A DNA stretch of 64,000 bases from Bacteroidota bacterium (GTDB lineage Bacteria > Bacteroidota > Bacteroidia > Chitinophagales > Chitinophagaceae). Under the pieces are notes generated by a model. The model saw only the letters and a list, made by a program, of their open reading frames with translations. It ran no database searches and had not been told where the DNA came from. The translations under genes were made by a program, and so were the position numbers. Location of the stretch: assembly GCA_018266615.1 (NCBI GenBank), contig JAFEAB010000096.1, positions 124,001 to 188,000 on the forward strand, in the 5' to 3' direction. Of the stretch, positions 8,814-64,000 are shown one piece after another. Within the stretch, counting starts at the first letter, position 1, and every line of letters starts with the position of its first letter.

Positions 8814-9863
8814 ATGAAAAAAATTCTGGTTACCGGAGGAAGCGGTTATATCGGGTCACACACCATCATCGACCTTTTACAAAATGGGTTTGAGGTTATT
8901 TCTGCCGATAATTTCAGCCGCAGTTCTCCTGATATTTTCATCGGTATAGAAAAAGCCACCGGCGTAAAGGTGAAAAATTATGCCATCGATCTTTGCAACT
9001 TCGATGATACCCATGCGGTATTCCAGGAAAACCCCGATCTTGCCGGGATCATTCACTTTGCCGCATTTAAAGCAGTGGGCGAATCGGTAGAAACCCCATT
9101 ACTTTATTTTGAGAATAACCTGGTCAGCCTGCTTAATATTTTAAAATGCGCCGGCGAATTTAAAGTACCCCATTTTGTATTTTCTTCCTCCTGCACAGTT
9201 TATGGAAACCCAAAAGAAATTCCGGTAACGGAAAATTCTCCGTTTGAAGAAGCCGAATCAAGCTATGGCTATACCAAGCAAATGGGAGAAAACATAGTAA
9301 CAGAGAGTTATAGAACGTTGGGATTAAAAGCCTCCTTATTACGATATTTCAACCCGGTTGGGGCACATCCTTCCAATGAAATTGGCGAAATACCAATAGG
9401 AAAACCGGCCAACCTGGTGCCTGCCATTACTCAAACTGCTATTGGTAAACTTCCCGAAATGAAAGTCCATGGTAATAATTACCCTACCCGGGATGGAAGT
9501 TGTATTCGTGATTATATTCATGTGTCGGATATTGCCCACGCCCATACCCTGGCCCTAAAACACCTCATGCAAATAAATAAGAAAGAGGTTTGTGAGGTTT
9601 TTAACCTGGGTAGTGGTACCGGTTATACTGTTTTAGAAGTAATTGCTGCTTTCGAAAAAGTTAGCGGACGGAAATTAAAATATTCTATTGGACCCCGCCG
9701 CCGTGGAGATGTAGTAGCAATATTTGCAAATAATGACAAAGCAAAAAACATTTTAGGTTGGAATCCTGTTTTCAACTTAGACCAAATGATGGCAACCGCC
9801 TGGAATTGGGAATTAAAACTGCAGGAATTGGAAATCAAAAACGGACCAAAAAACTTTAATTAA
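8814..9863 (+). CDS. galE: UDP-glucose 4-epimerase
   Basis: A 349-residue extended SDR enzyme interconverting UDP-glucose and UDP-galactose. It shows the NAD-binding GGSGYIGSH at the N-terminus, SSSCTVYGNP, the catalytic Tyr-Lys in SYGYTKQMGE, the LRYFNPVGAHPS segment and RDYIHVSDIAHAH, all diagnostic of GalE. An in-frame TTG at 8802 is possible, but the ATG at 8814 gives the usual MKKILVTGG start. It ends 20 bases before the transketolase-half gene, with which it may be cotranscribed although the pathways differ. Confidence 0.93.
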   Translation: MKKILVTGGSGYIGSHTIIDLLQNGFEVISADNFSRSSPDIFIGIEKATGVKVKNYAIDLCNFDDTHAVFQENPDLAGIIHFAAFKAVGESVETPLLYFENNLVSLLNILKCAGEFKVPHFVFSSSCTVYGNPKEIPVTENSPFEEAESSYGYTKQMGENIVTESYRTLGLKASLLRYFNPVGAHPSNEIGEIPIGKPANLVPAITQTAIGKLPEMKVHGNNYPTRDGSCIRDYIHVSDIAHAHTLALKHLMQINKKEVCEVFNLGSGTGYTVLEVIAAFEKVSGRKLKYSIGPRRRGDVVAIFANNDKAKNILGWNPVFNLDQMMATAWNWELKLQELEIKNGPKNFN

Positions 9864-55395: not shown

Positions 55396-58137
55396 CTATT
55401 CAGGCTCCTGGCCCAGCATGAATGTAAATTTGGCGGCGCCTTTCAATCCCGTAGACTGGTTATACCGGTCGAAACCGATTCCATAATCAAATCCCAGTAA
55501 TCCAAACATGGGCAGATAGAACCTGGCTCCCAAACCGGCAGCACGCCTAAGCCGGAACGGGTTATAATCTTTAAAACTATACCACCCGTTGGCTGCCTCA
55601 AAAAAGGCAAGGCCATAAATGGTGCTGCTGGCAGCCAGGCTAAACGGATATCTTAGCTCAACCGTATATTTATTAAAGATGGTAAAGTATTCGGATGGGG
55701 TAATTCCCTCCGGATTAACCTTCGGATTCGAACTCGAATAAATAGGATATCCTCTTTGTGCAATAATATCATATCCCAATAAGGCCTGGGTATTGCTCAA
55801 CCCGGCATCTCCCAATTGGAATCTTTCAAACGGAGAAACATCCAGTTTCTGATTGTATTTTCCGATAAAACCAAACTTGGCTGCCGCTTTCAAAATAAAC
55901 TGTTTATTCTTGTCCTCTCCACGCCCCCTTCCAATTGGCATATACCACTCTGCATTCACCCGCCATTTATGAAATTCCGGCAATTCGTATTGGGAGAAGT
56001 TGGCATTTGTGATTCCCAGGTAAGAATAAGGAAGGGTAAACTGACCGCTTGCCATCAGGGTGGAACCTGAAGTAGGGAATATAGGATTAGGCCCTGCTGA
56101 ATTACGCAACAGGGTAATTTTCAAACTTACGTTGGTAGAGTTTACATTCTTTAACCCTTTGAAGCCGCTAACCGCATAATTCTTCAATTTATATTGCTGT
56201 AAGTTCAAAGAATAAATGAGGTTGAAGAAATCATCGGGTTTCTTCAATTGTTTACCCAAAGAAATGCCGAATCCTATGGTTTTAACATACGAAGTATCAC
56301 CGCATGATTTACAATAGGCCCCAAAAGCATCGTAGGTATTGGCATACTTGGTATTATAATAGCTTAGGGAAAAAGAATTCCTCTTTTTACCACCCAGCCA
56401 GGGCTCGGTAAAGGAGAAACTATACGACCGGTATGCGCGTCCGTTAGACTGCACCCTGGCGCTCAGCTTTTGCCCATCGCCGGTAGGAAGCGGATCCCAG
56501 GTCGATTTTTTAAGGATGTTTTTAATGGAGAAATTATTGAAGGTAACACCCAGGGTTCCGGTAAGGCCGATGCCTCCGCCGAAACCAGCCGAGAGTTCGA
56601 GCTGGTCAGCAGATTTTTCTTCTACCTGCCAGTTAATATCTACTGTGCCATTATCTGAATTTGGTACAATTTGCGGGTTAATGGTTTCCGGGTTGAGGAA
56701 GCCGAGCTGCGACAATTCGCGTTGGGTTCGAATAACATCCGATCTGCTGAATTTTTCGCCGGGAATAGTACGCATTTCCCGGAGGATAACATAATCCTTA
56801 GTTTTATCGTTGCCTGAAACCGTTATTTTTCCATAGGTAGCCTGCGGACCCTCCGTCATGCGCATTTCATAATCGATGGTATCGTTATATACCGCAGTTT
56901 CCACGGGATCTACATGGAAAAACAGGTAGCCGTCGTCCTGATACAGACTCCCCACATCTCCACCTTCCATCGATAATTGTTTACCGAGGCGTTTATTGAG
57001 CAGATCGAGGTTATATGTATCACCTTTATGAATGCCGAGAATAACGTTTAGGAGGGAGTCGGAATATTTCGTGTTACCTGTCCAGGTAATATTACCAAAA
57101 TAATATTTCTTCCCTTCGTGAACTTTGATGTCGATATTCAGGTTGCCCCTGGCGCTATCGTTGCTATAAAAGACAGTATCGGCCAATATTTCAGCATCCC
57201 GGAACCCTTCGGCATTATAAAAGGAAAGAACTTTCTCCTTGTCTTCCCGGTATTTTTTGACGTTAAATTTTGAACCGCTGAAAAATTTAATCCGAACATA
57301 GGGATCCATGAAATCGCGTGTAGTCGTTGGCGAAAGGTAACCGGTAGCTTTCATGTATTCAGAAAAACTCATGCTTTTGGATGAGTCGCCATAAGGGCTG
57401 ATTACTTTTTCGGGGAACAGGGTAACCCGTGTCATTTCTTTGGTCCCCTTCATTTGCTTTTTAAGCTTCAGATCGCTGTATTTTTCATTGCCGGTGAAGT
57501 TGATGGAGTTCACCCGCACTTTGCTATTCTTCCTGATAAAAAAAGTGAGGCTAACGGCATTGGCCACCCCCGGAACTTTTTCCTCTACAACATTAACCGT
57601 TGCATTCCGGTATCCCTTATCATCATAAAATTTCCGGATTGCTTCAATGGCATTCAGTTTCATGTTTTCTGAAAGCACCCTGTCTTTCAATAAACCTACT
57701 TTTCCTTCGAGGTCTTCTTTTTCCCCTTTTCGAATACCTACAAATTTAAAATCAAGAAGCCGGGGCCTTTCGGTGATAGCTATCTCGAGGTTTATATGAT
57801 TATCGTTGGTAAGTTGGGTAATATAAATTTCCACATCGGCCACAAGGCTTTGCTTCCAAAGTTTTTCTATGGCCTTGGAAAACATATCGGAACCGGGAAG
57901 GGTCACTTTATCGCCCACCGCCAGTCCCGAAATAGAAATAATGAGGTTGGGATCAAAGGATTTTGCTCCTGAAACTACAATGGACCCAATTGTGTAGGGC
58001 TTGGGATATTTTGCCGTTGTAATATTAAGCAGGGCCGGATCTACCGATTTGGCACTGGAATCAACCTGAGCACTACTCCATTGCGCTAAAAATGAAAAAA
58101 GTATGAAAAGCAATGCGCTTTGGCAGGTCCTGTGCAT
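55396..58137 (-). CDS. bamA: Outer membrane assembly factor BamA
   Basis: A 913-residue Omp85 protein with a signal peptide (MHRTCQSALLFILFSFLAQ), five POTRA domains over about residues 50-500 (for example GSIVVSGAKSFDPNLIISISG and YGKITVSGNDKTKDYVILRE) and a C-terminal barrel with a VRGF/NRGY-like GAFYCK loop region and GYDIIAQRGYPIY. The barrel ends AKFTFMLGQEPE, so a four-residue tail follows the last aromatic strand instead of the usual terminal Phe. The frame extends to a TTG at 58161; the ATG at 58137 gives the better signal peptide. It lies between uppS and the Skp genes. Confidence 0.94.
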   Translation of the reverse strand: MHRTCQSALLFILFSFLAQWSSAQVDSSAKSVDPALLNITTAKYPKPYTIGSIVVSGAKSFDPNLIISISGLAVGDKVTLPGSDMFSKAIEKLWKQSLVADVEIYITQLTNDNHINLEIAITERPRLLDFKFVGIRKGEKEDLEGKVGLLKDRVLSENMKLNAIEAIRKFYDDKGYRNATVNVVEEKVPGVANAVSLTFFIRKNSKVRVNSINFTGNEKYSDLKLKKQMKGTKEMTRVTLFPEKVISPYGDSSKSMSFSEYMKATGYLSPTTTRDFMDPYVRIKFFSGSKFNVKKYREDKEKVLSFYNAEGFRDAEILADTVFYSNDSARGNLNIDIKVHEGKKYYFGNITWTGNTKYSDSLLNVILGIHKGDTYNLDLLNKRLGKQLSMEGGDVGSLYQDDGYLFFHVDPVETAVYNDTIDYEMRMTEGPQATYGKITVSGNDKTKDYVILREMRTIPGEKFSRSDVIRTQRELSQLGFLNPETINPQIVPNSDNGTVDINWQVEEKSADQLELSAGFGGGIGLTGTLGVTFNNFSIKNILKKSTWDPLPTGDGQKLSARVQSNGRAYRSYSFSFTEPWLGGKKRNSFSLSYYNTKYANTYDAFGAYCKSCGDTSYVKTIGFGISLGKQLKKPDDFFNLIYSLNLQQYKLKNYAVSGFKGLKNVNSTNVSLKITLLRNSAGPNPIFPTSGSTLMASGQFTLPYSYLGITNANFSQYELPEFHKWRVNAEWYMPIGRGRGEDKNKQFILKAAAKFGFIGKYNQKLDVSPFERFQLGDAGLSNTQALLGYDIIAQRGYPIYSSSNPKVNPEGITPSEYFTIFNKYTVELRYPFSLAASSTIYGLAFFEAANGWYSFKDYNPFRLRRAAGLGARFYLPMFGLLGFDYGIGFDRYNQSTGLKGAAKFTFMLGQEPE

Positions 58138-58233
58138 CAATTGGTTTTTAACGTGCGGCAAATTAAAGGCAATAATTAAAAGGAATTGTTAAAGGAAAGG
58201 GGAGAATAGGCGTTCCATAGCGGGTTGAGATAA

Positions 58234-58977
58234 TTAGTTTTTCACCTGTTCGCCCGTTTTTCCAAACCTGCGTTCCCGGTGTTGATAATCGATGATGGCC
58301 TGGTACAGTTCTTCTTTCCGGAAATCGGGCCAGCGGGTCTCCGTAAAGTATAATTCGGCATAAGCAAGCTGGTAGAGAAGAAAATTACTGATCCGGTACT
58401 CACCCCCGGTTCGAATCATAAGTTCGGGGTCGGGAAAATTGCTGGTACTAAGGTATTTTTGAATCTGATCGGTATTAATATCCTCCGGCAACAGGTTCCC
58501 CTTTTTCACTTCCCTGGCAATTTGTTTAATGGCGTTTTCAATTTCCCACCGGGAGCTGTAGCTTATGGCCATAATAAGGTTGAGCCCTGTGTTTGCCGAA
58601 GTTTCTTTCAACGCTTCTTCCAACTCTGCCCGGGCTTCGGGCGGGAGCATACCTACGTCTCCGATTACATGCAGGCGAATATTATTCTTATTTAGTGTAG
58701 GCACCTCCTTACGGATGGTATCTACCAATAGTTCCATCAGGCCCGAAACTTCATAGGCAGGTCTGTCCCAATTTTCAGTACTGAACGCATACAGGGTAAG
58801 GTAACCAATTCCGATTTCTGCCGCTCCTTCCACAATATTTCGCACACTTTCTACCCCATGCAGGTGACCAAACAAGCGGTCCTCCCCTTTTTCTTGTGCC
58901 CAACGGCCATTCCCATCCATAATGATGGCAATATGTTGGGGGAGTTTGGAAGGATCGATACGCTCTCTTAATAACAT
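58234..58977 (-). CDS. uppS: Undecaprenyl diphosphate synthase
   Basis: A 247-residue cis-prenyltransferase making the lipid carrier for wall and glycan synthesis. HIAIIMDGNGRWAQEKG with the Asp, FGHLHGVESVRNIVEGAAEI, YAFSTENWDRP and RTGGEYRISNFLLYQLAYAE are family motifs. The RTSGE block reads RTGGE, a Ser-to-Gly change that I recall in other Bacteroidota. Its promoter box at 59003-59010 probably drives uppS, bamA and the two Skp genes together. Confidence 0.95.
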   Translation of the reverse strand: MLLRERIDPSKLPQHIAIIMDGNGRWAQEKGEDRLFGHLHGVESVRNIVEGAAEIGIGYLTLYAFSTENWDRPAYEVSGLMELLVDTIRKEVPTLNKNNIRLHVIGDVGMLPPEARAELEEALKETSANTGLNLIMAISYSSRWEIENAIKQIAREVKKGNLLPEDINTDQIQKYLSTSNFPDPELMIRTGGEYRISNFLLYQLAYAELYFTETRWPDFRKEELYQAIIDYQHRERRFGKTGEQVKN

Positions 58978-59002
58978 GGGCTAACCTTTGCCTGAATGGC
59001 CG

Positions 59003-59010
59003 CAAAAGTA
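59003..59010 (-). promoter_or_regulatory. -7 box (TACTTTTG on minus strand) for uppS-bamA
   Basis: An exact TAnnTTTG match 25 bases upstream of the ATG at 58977. Confidence 0.5.
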
Positions 59011-59049
59011 CGTCATTTGAAATAAGATAAAAGAAATATGCTATCCTTA

Positions 59050-59922
59050 TTAGTTACTGGGGCAACGATAGCTGATTATATTAAAGGAAACCCCAATTTC
59101 GGCCATCAGATATTGGTCCTTTTGTTTGCTCCAACCGCGTTGACGGCCTTCTCTTCCCAGGGGGTTAAGCGGATCAAGTTCATACGAACGATCCTGCATT
59201 AGCATAGCAATGGTTGGCTGGCCATTCGGCCCCGGAGGAAAATTATTGGCATCGGTTCCATATCCGGCACCGGCATAGGTGGTACTTACATCATCCAGGT
59301 AATCGGTAGTGGTAAACCGATGGCATACTTCGATATTGAGATTGAATCTTTCGGAGATATTGTATTTAATCCCCACTCCAAACGGGATACACATGGCCAT
59401 GGTAGAATATTGTTTTCTACCCATATAACCGGTATTCTGCCCTTCGGTACCCAGGGGGCGCAGGTATTCTTTCTTTCCGTTGTATAAGGCATAGGGGTCG
59501 TATGAAAAAGCACCCACACCCAGGGTTACATAGGGAGTAAAACCATAATCGGGGTTGCCGGGTATGAACTTAAAGAAATTAAAATCGCCCTGAATGGCTA
59601 TCTCCCAAATATTGGAATTGAAGCTAAGGTTACGCTGGCGCTGGTACTCATTCTTGCTGTACACATCGCTATATCCCAATTGGGCAAAGTGGGCGCCCAC
59701 CCGAAGGCCTACATAATTTCCAAATTGTTTGCGGAAGAAAATACCGGCTGCCGGTTTGGGTCGGTTTAGCCTGGCCCTTGTATTTAGATCTCCAAAATAA
59801 TGGGCAATACCGGCGGAAATGCCAAATTCGCCCTTTTGTACATACTCATATTCGTTGCGCTGGCTGGAGGCAGTGCCCCAAATACAAACAGCGAGAAGTG
59901 CCAACAGAAAATAACGATTCAC
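59050..59922 (-). CDS. DUF6089 outer-membrane protein
   Basis: A 290-residue protein with a GTG start, a signal peptide (MNRYFLLALLAVCIWGTASSQ) and a beta-barrel of about eight strands, among them FGISAGIAHYFGDLNTRARL, YVGLRVGAHFAQLGYSDVYS and FGVGIKYNISERFNLNIEV. DUF6089 proteins are typically encoded directly upstream of uppS and bamA in Bacteroidota, as here, but have no established function. An uncommon inserted loop (residues about 200-250) follows the RFTTTDYLDDVSTTYAG strand. Confidence 0.86.
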   Translation of the reverse strand: MNRYFLLALLAVCIWGTASSQRNEYEYVQKGEFGISAGIAHYFGDLNTRARLNRPKPAAGIFFRKQFGNYVGLRVGAHFAQLGYSDVYSKNEYQRQRNLSFNSNIWEIAIQGDFNFFKFIPGNPDYGFTPYVTLGVGAFSYDPYALYNGKKEYLRPLGTEGQNTGYMGRKQYSTMAMCIPFGVGIKYNISERFNLNIEVCHRFTTTDYLDDVSTTYAGAGYGTDANNFPPGPNGQPTIAMLMQDRSYELDPLNPLGREGRQRGWSKQKDQYLMAEIGVSFNIISYRCPSN

Positions 59923-60057
59923 TTAATAATAATTGTTGGTTATAAAATGCGGATCGAAAATAAGGTAAAAAAACTTGCTATACAGGAGGCTTTGAATGAT
60001 TTTAGTTTATTAACGCTGCGGAAACTGAAAATTACATATCCTTCCTGAAAATTTTTG

Positions 60058-60543
60058 TTAACTATCGGAGCCATTTTTTTGTACCCTGATCCCGACACTC
60101 ATAATACCAGGCAGGGGGTTATCTCTCATAATCTGGTTTATTTCGTACCGGTACTCACCCGGTTTCGAAAATTTGTGCATGAAAATCAGCTTTCGCATTT
60201 CCCAGATATCATTCATTCCGGATCCCTCCCACCCTCCCGCATCATCTGCAAGTGGAAGGTTTATTTTCCTTATTCGCATACTGTCTCCCGGATCCTGAAA
60301 GCCCAGGTTTAACCAAATATTACTATACCGGTAATTATCGGTATGCCGCAGGACTACATAAATATTATAAGAAGATACCGTATCCGAAATGATGAAACTG
60401 CCCTTCACCGTATAATTATGCTGCCATTTAAAACCCGGAATGCGTGTATTTTGCTCGTGGAGCTTTATTGGCGTACAACCGGAAAAAAGGGACCCTGTTC
60501 CCCAAAAAATAATACCTAATAAGATGCCGGAGCTGCGCTTCAT
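60058..60543 (-). CDS. gldH: Gliding motility lipoprotein GldH
   Basis: A 161-residue lipoprotein beginning MKRSSGILLGIIFWGTG with the lipobox FSGC (cleavage before Cys). The mature part contains YNIYVVLRHTDNYRYSNIWL, DDAGGWEGSGMNDIWEMR and YRYEINQIMRDNPLPGI, the GldH family pattern. The frame extends to 60597, overlapping yicC; the ATG at 60543 leaves a 10-base gap to the yicC stop and a proper signal. GldH is needed for gliding in Flavobacterium; its presence does not prove motility. Confidence 0.88.
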   Translation of the reverse strand: MKRSSGILLGIIFWGTGSLFSGCTPIKLHEQNTRIPGFKWQHNYTVKGSFIISDTVSSYNIYVVLRHTDNYRYSNIWLNLGFQDPGDSMRIRKINLPLADDAGGWEGSGMNDIWEMRKLIFMHKFSKPGEYRYEINQIMRDNPLPGIMSVGIRVQKNGSDS

Positions 60544-60553
60544 AACTAAACCG

Positions 60554-61429
60554 CTAAAGTACATTAAGAACCTGTTCTTTTGCTTTTTCCAATTCATCTT
60601 TCATTTTCACCACGCATTTTTGAATAGACGCATCGTACGCTTTGCTGCCGGTTGTATTTATCTCCCTCCCCATTTCCTGCAAAATAAAGGACAGCTTCTT
60701 TCCCTTTCCGGGGTCATTGCCCTTTAAAACTTCAAAGAAATATTCGCAATGCTGCCGGAGGCGAATCTGTTCTTCATGGATATCGATCTTTTCTATATAA
60801 TAAATCAGTTCCTGCTCGAGGCGGTTTCCATCGGTATGTTCTTTCCCCACATATTCGTTGAGCAGGGCAACAATTTCCTGCCGGATCTTTTCTTTTCGTT
60901 TGGGTTCCAGCTTTAGGATTTCCTCCTCCTGCTTTTCGATCCTACTAATACGGTTCACCAGATCTTTCTCAATGGAAGCGCCTTCTTCTTCTCGGTGTTT
61001 ATTCAATTCTTCGAGGGCCTTTAGGAGCACCTGTTTAAATCCATTGAAACTCTTTTCATCCAACATGTCTGTGGAAGGAGTCACCACTTCAGGCAACCGG
61101 AGTAAGGCGGCCAGCACACTCTGGGTATCTATATTTAAATCATTTGCCAGCTCGGCAATTTGTTTATAGTACGAACGAATCAGTTCTGTATTCAGGTTAA
61201 CCGGTTTAGCTGTTCCATTTTGTTTAAGGCTGATGTAACAATCAACGGTGCCGCGCAGCAATTGCTCCTGGAGTATAGAGCGGATATCAAACTCGTAAGG
61301 CTTAAGCAATGCCGGCAATTTCAACTGCAATTCAAGTTGTTTACCATTCAGGGTTTTAATCTCCACCAGAAAAGTGGTATCTCCAATTATTTGTTCCGCC
61401 CTTCCAAAACCGGTCATTGATTTTATCAT
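60554..61429 (-). CDS. YicC family endoribonuclease
   Basis: A 291-residue protein with the N-terminal MIKSMTGFGRAE signature, the helical middle and the C-terminal FILQEMGREINTTGSKAYDA block that is diagnostic of YicC/YloC proteins. They act as RNases or RNA-decay factors on small RNAs in Enterobacteria. It heads a minus-strand run with gldH. A candidate small RNA or attenuator lies between 61504 and 61581, upstream of it. Confidence 0.92.
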   Translation of the reverse strand: MIKSMTGFGRAEQIIGDTTFLVEIKTLNGKQLELQLKLPALLKPYEFDIRSILQEQLLRGTVDCYISLKQNGTAKPVNLNTELIRSYYKQIAELANDLNIDTQSVLAALLRLPEVVTPSTDMLDEKSFNGFKQVLLKALEELNKHREEEGASIEKDLVNRISRIEKQEEEILKLEPKRKEKIRQEIVALLNEYVGKEHTDGNRLEQELIYYIEKIDIHEEQIRLRQHCEYFFEVLKGNDPGKGKKLSFILQEMGREINTTGSKAYDASIQKCVVKMKDELEKAKEQVLNVL

Positions 61430-61447
61430 ACACGAAATGATTTATTG

Positions 61448-61454
61448 CAAGGTA
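61448..61454 (-). promoter_or_regulatory. Possible promoter (TACCTTG on minus strand) for yicC
   Basis: A 7-base variant of TAnnTTTG with one T missing, 19 bases upstream of the yicC ATG and downstream of the hairpin-terminator. If used, yicC does not need readthrough of that terminator. Confidence 0.3.
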
Positions 61455-61503
61455 ATCTTTCTCGGCGGTGAAGAATCGTTTTCGTTGAGATGGAATATTT
61501 TTG

Positions 61504-61581
61504 AAAATAAAAAAGCCCGGTTTGCGACCGGACTTATTATATGGATGGGTTAGTAAGTACGGGGATATAAATTCCCCTACA
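61504..61581 (-). ncRNA. Candidate small RNA (or yicC leader attenuator), about 75 nt
   Basis: On the minus strand a TAATATTG box (61582-61589, one mismatch) with a TTTG at 61607-61610 and a 17-base spacer would start transcription at about 61580. The RNA would open with a hairpin GUAGGGGA/UCCCC-UAC (61557-61580, one bulge) and end at AGTCCGGT/ACCGGGCT (61514-61534, one G-U pair, 5-base loop), followed by a T-run (TTTTTTATTTT). The next gene on this strand, yicC, begins 75 bases further on. A free small RNA and a premature-termination leader are both possible. No known RNA family is recognised. Confidence 0.45.
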
Positions 61582-61589
61582 CAATATTA

Positions 61590-61765
61590 AAAAGATTTTT
61601 TGCTATCAAAAAAATTTTTTCAAACTATTTTATTAACATTTTAAAATTGCCTGTGGAAATCAAAATTGAAACAGGAGGTTTAAGACCCCACTTTGAATCA
61701 TTAATGATTAGCTGGATATTTAATTTCCTTCTGGCGAATATTCGGCTAGCAATTGTAAAGGATAT
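61590..61765. other. Non-coding stretch upstream of the lpxD-like gene
   Basis: AT-rich sequence with no gene-like frame, lying between the two opposing promoters. It is part of a 359-base gap whose other contents are listed separately. Confidence 0.5.
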
Positions 61766-61773
61766 TACATTTG
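61766..61773 (+). promoter_or_regulatory. -7 box (TACATTTG) for the lpxD-like gene
   Basis: An exact TAnnTTTG match 15 bases before the ATG at 61789. It covers the alternative in-frame TTG at 61771, which is therefore rejected as start. Confidence 0.5.
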
Positions 61774-61788
61774 CTGAAATTTATCGCT

Positions 61789-62745
61789 ATGCGTTTTCCT
61801 GCTCCTGTTTCCGTTGAATGGATTGCTTCATTGATTCATGCCGAACTTCATGGTAATAAAAAGGGCCTGGCAACTGGCATCAATGAAATACATAAAGTAG
61901 AACCGGGAGATTTGGTTTTTGTAGATCATCCTAAGTATTATGACAAGTGCATCCACAGTTCTGCCAGCTTTATCATCATCAATAAACCGGCCGATATACC
62001 CGAAGGGAAAGCGTTATTGATAGTTGAAAACCCCTTCGAAGCATATTGTAAAATTGTAAATCACTTCCGGCCTTTCGAAAAACCATCAGGAATGATCAGC
62101 CCCTCTGCAGAAATTGGTGAGGGTACCATCATCTTTCCCTCTGCCTTTATTGGCAACCAGGTGCAGATAGGAAAAAACTGCATCATCCATCCGCAGGTAA
62201 CTATTTTAGATCATTGTATCCTTGGGGATAATGTTATCATTCAGGCATCCACCGTGATAGGAGGAGATGCTTTCTATTATAACAGTAAAAAGGACCGGGA
62301 AGTATGGTATAGGAAAATGCCCAGTTGCGGAAGAGTTATCATCGAAGACTTTGTAGAAATTGGTGCAAGCTGTACTATCGACCGGGGCGTAAGCCACGAT
62401 ACACTAATTGGCAGGGGAACCAAAATAGACAATATGGTACATATTGGGCACGACAGTATAATTGGAAAGAATTGTCTGATTGCGGCACAGGTAGGTATAG
62501 CGGGTGTAGTAAATATAGAAGACGGCGTTACGCTTTGGGGGCAGGTAGGCGTAAGTAAAACGCTAACCATTGGGGAAAATGCAACGGTATTTGCACAAAG
62601 CGGAATTCCAAAATCGATTGAAGGCAACCAACAATATTTTGGCTCTCCCGCCGAACCGGCCAAAGTGAAAATGAAAGAACTTGTCTTTATGAAGCGCCTC
62701 CCCGAAATGTGGGAGAAGCTAAACAAGCTGTCCTCAAAAGGTTAA
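61789..62745 (+). CDS. lpxD: LpxD-like UDP-3-O-acylglucosamine N-acyltransferase
   Basis: A 318-residue left-handed beta-helix acyltransferase. The N-terminal uridine-binding domain (residues about 1-100; [15 protein letters not shown]) precedes many hexapeptide repeats from [19 protein letters not shown] to [34 protein letters not shown] holds the catalytic His, and GGDAFYYN is the lpxD-like GxxGFG region with changes. It makes the tri-acyl step of lipid A. It may be a second paralogue beside a main lpxD elsewhere. It overlaps the convergent downstream gene by 12 bases. Confidence 0.85.
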
Positions 62746-63840
62746 AGAGATATAATTATACGGTAATTGATCGGCTACCTTCGACCATCCCCAGTAGGCA
62801 CTCATGGTAATATCATCCTGATCGAAATAAAAACCATTTTGTTCTATAAATAAGGTTTCTCCAGGAGCAATATTCACCAGCGAATATTCAAAATCTCTAT
62901 TCTCCTCCGGATTTTCCCGTAAATACGTTTCCTCCGGTTTTTCGTTTAAATACAGCACTACCAGGTTATGTTGGCTGGGATTAATGCTCACCACCTGGGT
63001 ACTATCATCCTTAAAATAATTTAATGCCTGGTAAAGATTTTTTAAAGGCAACGCGGTATCCTTTCCCAAATAATTAAGTACATATTGAACTTGAAAACCT
63101 TCTTCCTCTACCCGTTTTTGATAAAGACTGCGCATAAAATGAAGAATAGATCCGCGGTATGCTTTTTCTCTTTTGCTTACCCATACCTGTCGTTGATCGT
63201 CATTTACCGGAATAAGTTCCTCAAATAAAGGATTGCCCGTATAATAAGCCACCTGTGTATTGTATGCATACGTAAAGGAATCCAGGGCATAATGTACCGT
63301 ATATCCCAAGGCACGATTCTCAACCAGTATCGGTTCTTCAGAAGTTACCTTCAGGCGGTTGCGCTTTCGGGAAAAAAAGAAATGCAATTTTTCCGGATTT
63401 TTTATACTGCAATCTTTGCTGTTTTCCGATTTGCCAATAAAATTTTCAACAAAGAAATTTCCATACTTCTCCCAACCGTTCTTCACTTCGGTTGTGGCAA
63501 TAACCGCAACGGCCTCCATTTCCTTTTCCTTTGGCTTCAAGGAGAAACTAAGGTTTTGGTTTTGAGTATCCGATGAAGTAATGCGCCTCCTCTCCGTTCC
63601 AAAACCCGTAAAACTTACAATTAAATCATATCCGCCGGGTGGGAGGTACAGGTTGAATTTTCCATCGGCTCCGGTGGTAGTCCCGATGGTGGTGTTTTCA
63701 GCAAAAACAGAAGCTCCCTGCATCGGCTGGTTATTATCGAGGTTCATTACCTGCCCCGATACAACAAAGTAATTTCCCTGCGAAAGCGCATTATTAGATG
63801 CAAAAAGGGAAGAAATGAAAAGTATAAGGAATATTCTCAT
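62734..63840 (-). CDS. Exported CarboxypepD_reg-like domain protein
   Basis: A 368-residue protein with a signal peptide ([20 protein letters not shown]). It opens with a beta-sandwich CarboxypepD_reg-like domain (residues about 22-100; [39 protein letters not shown]), common at the N-terminus of TonB-dependent receptors but here followed by about 260 residues without a plug or barrel. That part resembles proteins of the same build in Bacteroidota; its function is unknown. Its stop overlaps lpxD. The epimerase-like gene ends 35 bases upstream. Confidence 0.78.
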
Positions 63841-63875
63841 CTTTTTGTAATTGATTTAACCCAGGCGAATGTAAA

Positions 63876-64000
63876 TTATGGTTTGTTAAGTTTTTGTTGC
63901 ATAGAAGCGGCTACTCTTTTTATGGTTTCGTCAATGGAGGTAAACGAAAATTCAGGAAAAGCATTTAAGATCTTTTGGTTGCAGTATTTACTTTCTCTTA
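63876..64000 (-). CDS. C-terminal end of an NAD-dependent epimerase/dehydratase-like protein (5' end beyond window)
   Basis: Read from the right edge, the frame gives ESKYCNQKILNAFPEFSFTS then IDETIKRVAASMQQ and ends at a TAA (63876-63878). The pattern SN.KI..AFPEF.F..ID.TI is typical of the last helix of extended SDR reductases such as dihydroflavonol reductase-like proteins. Only 40 residues are visible, so the call is provisional. Confidence 0.6.
   Translation of the reverse strand, partial: RESKYCNQKILNAFPEFSFTSIDETIKRVAASMQQKLNKP

Follow-up and report, generated by a model that had tools for sequence, protein, structure and literature searches.

We analysed a window of 64,000 nucleotides (the whole stretch of DNA under study) and, within it, the region between two divergent genes, yicC (60554..61429, minus strand; TIGR00255, 192.6 bits against a cut-off of 167.5; PF03755 and PF08340) and lpxD (61789..62745, plus strand; TIGR01853, 273.5 bits against a cut-off of 242.5). 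This region contains a predicted small RNA of about 74 nt, here named RNA-A, located on the minus strand at 61507..61580, with yicC as the next gene downstream. A covariance model (R1), built on 28 relatives' sequences of which the window copy is itself one, matched it at 61507-61589 with 89.6 bits, and the next best place in the window scored 15.4. RNA-A is kept in relatives (see below); its predicted median length is 74 nt and the window transcript would run from about 61580 to 61508.

The putative promoter is formed by a -7 element, TAATATTG (61582..61589, minus strand), invariant in the alignment of 28 sequences, and a -33 element, TTTG (61607..61610, minus strand), located 17 bases 5' of it within a T-rich block that is conserved at fixed spacing. 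The consensus that PMC7366714 states for the main Bacteroides sigma factor is TTTG / TAnnTTTG at -33/-7. Transcription is predicted to start at about 61580, the first base of a 5' hairpin, GUAGGGGAA...UCCCCGUAC (61557..61580, minus strand), which folds and has 98.1% of its cells paired over 27 distinct sequences. The core of RNA-A, GUACUUACUAACCCAU (61545..61560, minus strand), follows; its unpaired part, UACUUACUAACCCAU, is complementary to a second element, RNA-B, and the complementarity with the RNA-B of the same genome (G000:C59) extends over 16 nt. By prediction the core is mostly unpaired (mean unpaired probability 0.64-0.93 per base in 75 genomes), and it is invariant or nearly so among relatives. 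An intrinsic terminator (61508..61535, minus strand) closes the element with a 9-pair stem at 61535-61513, which survives base changes in relatives, and a U-tract. Sequence and folds thus place the promoter pair, the hairpin at the predicted first base and the terminator where the preliminary description had put them. A leader peptide in RNA-A was considered and rejected on reading the sequences: the frame that opens at the 5' GUG runs into a UAG stop in the window copy, as in others, and the hairpin varies in length.

Two further boxes lie upstream of the promoter on the minus strand. Box 2 (61630..61638) reads TGTTAATAA in the window and TGTGAATAA in most relatives, and its reverse complement resembles the DnaA box, TTATNCACA. 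Box 1 (61652..61659) reads TTTCCACA in the window and TTATCCACA in many relatives. The window copy has no strict DnaA box, box 1 being degenerate and box 2 not strict. The RNA-A promoters of the main clade, separated here from deep lineages by sequence form and not by a tree, present two inverted boxes at fixed positions: reverse-strand TTWTN[AC]ACA occurred in 70/70 loci, with 62 box-2 matches at one position, and the strict forward form TTWTNCACA in 39/70, against 0.45 in shuffles. Of the 12 occurrences of the tight box pair in 20 genomes, 11 were at RNA-A.

Distribution and conservation of RNA-A

Scans of positions 57000-64000 gave no excess of either promoters (16 found, 17.2 in shuffles) or terminators (10 found, 8.4 in shuffles), and the fold of the 107 bases was mildly better than shuffles (z -2.03; 5/200 equally good). 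With scans at chance level and a fold that surpasses shuffles only slightly, the motifs by themselves carry little weight; conservation, not motif scanning, is what decides that RNA-A is real.

A search with the yicC protein gave matches in 142 of 147 genomes of the same family, and the best 30 of these 142 loci were examined. In 28 of these best 30, the 16-mer TACTTACTAACCCATC (at most one mismatch) was accompanied by the promoter, hairpin and terminator described above, so that relatives retain the promoter, the 5' hairpin, the core and the terminator of RNA-A. Two loci lacked the 16-mer (L015 and L027), and the genome of L015 (G068) has RNA-A elsewhere. An apparent second copy beyond lpxD in L008 and L009 was discarded as a chance match of low complexity. 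In the alignment of 28 sequences (27 distinct), 92.1% of the cells of the consensus structure pair, against 84.6% in shuffles, with 0/500 shuffles reaching the real value. The 5' hairpin is mostly invariant and the terminator has five pairs changed on both sides, a number of both-side changes that, counted over RNA-A, is not above that of shuffles (121/500).

Searches with the covariance model delimited the distribution of RNA-A. At the level of the order, 60/248 genomes matched at E <= 0.001, all 60 in one family, f1, and no f1 genome was among the 20 misses listed out of 188. A class sample gave 9/295 matches, seven of them in f1; the other two (L065 and L067, 41.8 and 36.6 bits) were terminators with neither promoter nor core. 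Outside the family the search is of limited sensitivity: for each genome it scored 15-18 out of some 2000 candidates selected in a first step. Pattern searching of a fully listed phylum sample found RNA-A in 12/12 f1 genomes, and the 8/333 genomes outside f1 that matched the pattern did not have the RNA-A form on reading, leaving 0/333. A set of 30 f1 genomes, which includes the already known carriers G018 and G028, gave 27 genomes with a match at E <= 0.05, 26 of them confirmed by reading. Among the matches listed, the named contigs bearing the exact pattern were for the most part labelled as Chitinophagaceae, as the genera Chitinophaga, Niabella, Niastella and Sediminibacterium, or as uncultured Bacteroidota; from these labels we infer that f1 corresponds to Chitinophagaceae. 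Chitinophaga pinensis is one named species that has the locus. Judged by its sequence, this element is very likely a genuine gene for a small RNA, present in nearly every Chitinophagaceae genome examined. The proposal of a candidate small RNA in the preliminary description is strongly supported by a promoter, two hairpins and an invariant core conserved across the family, and the poor conservation of the hairpins that would have counted against it was not what the comparison of yicC upstream regions revealed: both are conserved. One genome, G036, has a second RNA-A-like sequence (L336, G036:C27:6761-6825; 37.2 bits) with ATTACTAACCCATT before its terminator.

RNA-B and other carriers of the core complement

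A 12-mer complementary to the RNA-A core occurred at 54 places in 20 genomes, against 17 for the reversed control. RNA-A itself accounted for 19 of them, and the other 35 comprised 19 copies of RNA-B, five sites 3' of recA, one copy of a third element (RNA-C) and 10 remaining places. Because these 10 are fewer than the 17 of the reversed control, the 12-mer search of the 20 genomes yielded no ordinary mRNA target of RNA-A. At one locus, L325 (G289), the 12-mer complement and a hairpin with a T-rich tail stand just after another open reading frame.

RNA-B is a second conserved, predicted small RNA; it is about 58 nt long, begins with GAAUUUAAUGGGUUAGUAAGU and lies directly upstream of radA. It presents a promoter, TTGTAATTTAG, an invariant stretch, GAATTTAATGGGTTAGTAAGT, and its own terminator at the end; AUG-GGU-UAG in it would form a two-codon start-stop frame. 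In the source genome it is located outside the window, at G000:C59:9453, before radA (L295:1453-1540). An RNA-B model matched, at E <= 0.1, 40/40 f1 genomes of a first set, which includes three genomes already known, and 35/40 of a second. On reading, 36 matches of the first set and 32 of the second were upheld. Those not confirmed were G125, G350, G031 and G099 in the first set and G033 (degenerate), G079 and G092 in the second, in which the model had no match in G005, G075, G090, G046 and G095. In all, a good RNA-B was confirmed by reading in 84 genomes. The gene radA follows on the same strand in 76/85 loci (the 85 include G033), and the protein encoded downstream passes the RadA cut-off. 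The main-clade promoters of RNA-B also carry boxes similar to those described above: the relaxed form was found in 46/58 and the strict forward form in 33/58, against about 0.5 expected.

Both RNAs were present in 83 genomes, with a contiguous match of 11-21 nt, usually 14-16, except in G028, where it is 8. Over a 14-pair core in 82 genomes (the count left out G033, with its degenerate RNA-B), 1137/1148 cells were standard pairs; with permuted partners the mean was 1134.1 and the maximum 1136, and 0/5000 permutations reached the real count. The predicted duplex energy averaged -24.3 in 79 genomes, against -11.1 for shuffled RNA-A; 8/790 shuffles reached the weakest real duplex and none reached the median. 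Sequence changes in the partners point both ways. In G105 both partners changed, from C-G to U-A, with 15 nt of complementarity kept, which is one clear compensatory change; in G026 and G115 a core pair changed to G.U; and four divergent genomes (G082, G088, G014 and G113) have complementarity that continues into the GAAUUU segment of RNA-B. These cases speak for RNA pairing. Against strict pairing speak G018 and G116, where both partners changed at one pair to give an A.A mismatch, and G028 and G001/G101, where RNA-A changed and RNA-B did not. Covariation support for the pairing is thin. RNA-B keeps GAAUUU unpaired with RNA-A in most genomes and must thus be under another constraint.

The core complement was also found in other contexts. 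In 5/20 genomes (G034, G345, G126, G289 and G003) it occurs with an adjoining terminator in the region after recA (loci L297, L308, L313, L315 and L323; RecA identity was tested for L313). RNA-C was recognized in seven deep-lineage genomes (L292, L487, L488, L493, L494, L495 and L496), where reading of the sequence suggests a loop, CUUAC...GUAAG, with GAUGGGUUA in it and a terminator after it. An Hsp20 gene is found near RNA-C (Pfam tested in L292 only).

RNA-B-like elements are present in viral sequences as well. A metagenomic phage with terminase and tail genes, L520, carries one at 8861-8951 (42.3 bits), and another (44.0 bits) occurs at L521:2049-2135 and L523:3106-3192, which by sequence are one virus. 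A 17-mer screen of viral contigs gave six contigs, about the number due to chance by a rough estimate, and two of them, representing one virus, passed the terminator test, which misses L520 with its longer loop. Three further patterns gave no other viral contig passing it, and the RNA-A 16-mer was found at 23 places in viral contigs, none with a promoter. From their sequence, the phage elements are possibly decoys for the host RNA.

Possible functions of RNA-A

By sequence, RNA-A has its own promoter and terminator, an accessible conserved core and a conserved partner encoded elsewhere, as a trans-acting small RNA would, and RNA-B, as a sponge would, contains a sequence complementary to the pairing region of RNA-A. 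Because its core is exactly antisense to the conserved RNA-B, RNA-A looks like one half of a two-RNA circuit and not like a switch of yicC. We therefore regard it as probable that RNA-A is a base-pairing small RNA, independently transcribed and terminated, that acts in trans with RNA-B as its main partner, either target or sponge. In the predicted transcript of about 74 nt, the 5' hairpin would guard the end, the unpaired core would pair in trans and the terminator would end the transcript. If both RNAs are transcribed, the core would form a duplex with RNA-B in the cell, and the outcome could be mutual sequestration or decay, RNA-B being a sponge of RNA-A, or an altered expression of radA and recA. 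RNA-B might in the latter case be a leader through which RNA-A touches radA, and the region after recA would offer the same complementary site in some genomes. The position beside radA and recA, taken as position only, makes a link to recombination attractive.

We consider it unlikely that RNA-A is mainly a cis leader or attenuator of the downstream gene (an RluE-like gene, then yicC), with the short RNA as a by-product and the core sensing something else. The gene order, where the flanks reach, is lpxD<-RNA-A->[RluE-like]->yicC in 56 distinct loci, and the gene next after RNA-A is RluE-like in 29, yicC in 23 and neither within 600 nt in four. The RluE-like protein is a pseudouridine synthase, so named because it scores below the RluE cut-off (157 bits against 284) yet passes the general TIGR00093 cut-off. 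Its start codon is at most 20 nt from the U-tract in 19/29 loci, which leaves no room for another promoter, so that at these loci it is probably transcribed by read-through of the terminator. Likewise, radA starts 68-79 nt after the RNA-B start in 12/76 loci. However, the same core is kept where yicC comes next with a -7 motif of its own: TAnnTTT was found after the terminator, about 23-58 nt before the ATG, in 21/23 yicC-first loci (4.0 in shuffles). In the window, where yicC begins 79 nt past the U-tract, this probable -7 element is the variant TACCTTG (61448..61454, minus strand). RNA-A also outlives its RluE-like neighbour, since it is kept where the close gene is gone: among 25 genomes, chosen to include some without a close RluE-like gene, such a gene (at least 62% identity) was found only in the five that have it at the locus, and the other 20, which keep RNA-A, have matches of at most 38% identity. 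Finally, no alternative antiterminator was seen in the minimum-energy or consensus folds of RNA-A.

A wider role for RNA-A is quite doubtful: a hub in which the DnaA-like boxes would tie replication state to homologous recombination through the radA leader and the recA 3' site, and which the RNA-B-like decoys of phages would disable.

Compensation alone, as in G105, cannot tell RNA pairing from a DNA motif that the loci have in common: a simultaneous change of both copies fits equally well with a 14-mer that is a protein-binding site at several loci. Such a DNA motif is nevertheless a very unlikely explanation. The 14-mer sits inside short predicted transcripts; relative to transcription, the core complement points the same way in RNA-B, RNA-C and the recA region and the other way in RNA-A; in all three partner contexts it is adjoined and followed by a terminator; G.U-compatible changes occur; and promoters, hairpins and terminators are conserved too.

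The preliminary description had proposed an attenuator as one possibility, with autoregulation by YicC as an attractive idea. The place of yicC directly after RNA-A in the window agrees with this idea, and PMC10793500 describes YicC as cleaving across a 26-mer hairpin and mentions that others have reported a preference for GUG. The 5' hairpin of RNA-A (61580-61557 in the window) starts near GUG, and the base of the hairpin reads GUG in most copies, which leaves processing of RNA-A by YicC a possibility on sequence grounds. Autoregulation of yicC did not hold up and now appears highly improbable: with a -7 motif of its own in nearly all yicC-first loci, yicC would seem not to depend on read-through of the RNA-A terminator, the pseudouridine synthase gene is first or intervenes in 29/56 loci, RNA-A occurs away from yicC in L054, and the core matches RNA-B.

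A replication origin or DnaA titration site with secondary RNA features, to which a pair of inverted 9-mers resembling DnaA boxes, fixed in their spacing and next to an AT-rich stretch, had pointed, can be practically dismissed, because in two single-contig genomes the sampled GC skew turns from minus to plus away from RNA-A (between 865 and 1038 kb in G317, with RNA-A at 1358 kb; between 501 and 668 kb in G022, with RNA-A at 966 kb), which rules out an origin at the locus, and because in deep lineages the boxes drift to TTNTCAACA or vanish and are absent from RNA-B.

Comparison with known systems

A search of Rfam 15 with the window and eight RNA-A, RNA-B or RNA-C loci gave no match at the gathering cut-off. 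The best sub-threshold match, Trp_leader (RF00513), shares a terminator followed by a U-tract, but its 24.6 bits fall short of the gathering score of 41, and no trp gene adjoins RNA-A. Open-licence full texts, searched by words and by motif letters, yielded no paper on RNA-A or RNA-B (the motif letters turned up two human papers with no relation to it), and the pair looks like an undescribed two-RNA circuit. If the pairing is real, it would be unusual in that two small RNAs encoded at separate places have stayed complementary throughout an entire bacterial family, with sites for the partner at radA and recA and similar elements in phages. The analysis corrects an obvious but unsupported link to YicC and provides short, exact and testable sequences in a phylum with few worked-out small-RNA mechanisms.

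GibS of Bacteroides thetaiotaomicron (PMC7366714) is, like RNA-A, an intergenic, trans-encoded small RNA of Bacteroidota with a conserved single-stranded seed. Nonetheless, GibS has 145 nt and another promoter type and pairs with mRNA translation starts, whereas RNA-A is shorter, at about 74 nt, and finds its best complement in another small RNA. A resemblance also exists to Rli51 of Listeria (PMC11394854), a leader with a terminator that has an additional action in trans and to which another small RNA binds, but the genes are unrelated and Rli51 has a predicted antiterminator, of which none was seen in RNA-A. Parallels in arrangement are ChiX-ChiZ and IspZ-OxyS of E. coli (PMC7815308), where small-RNA sponges derive from prematurely terminated 5' UTRs and sponging was shown experimentally. 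There, as with RNA-B, the sequence complementary to a small RNA's pairing region resides in a short RNA that is terminated ahead of a gene. The E. coli systems are partly Hfq- or Rho-dependent, while RNA-A and RNA-B are known from sequence, so that the likeness is one of arrangement and not of compared sequences; and, unlike those systems, RNA-A and RNA-B are both leader-like in some genomes.
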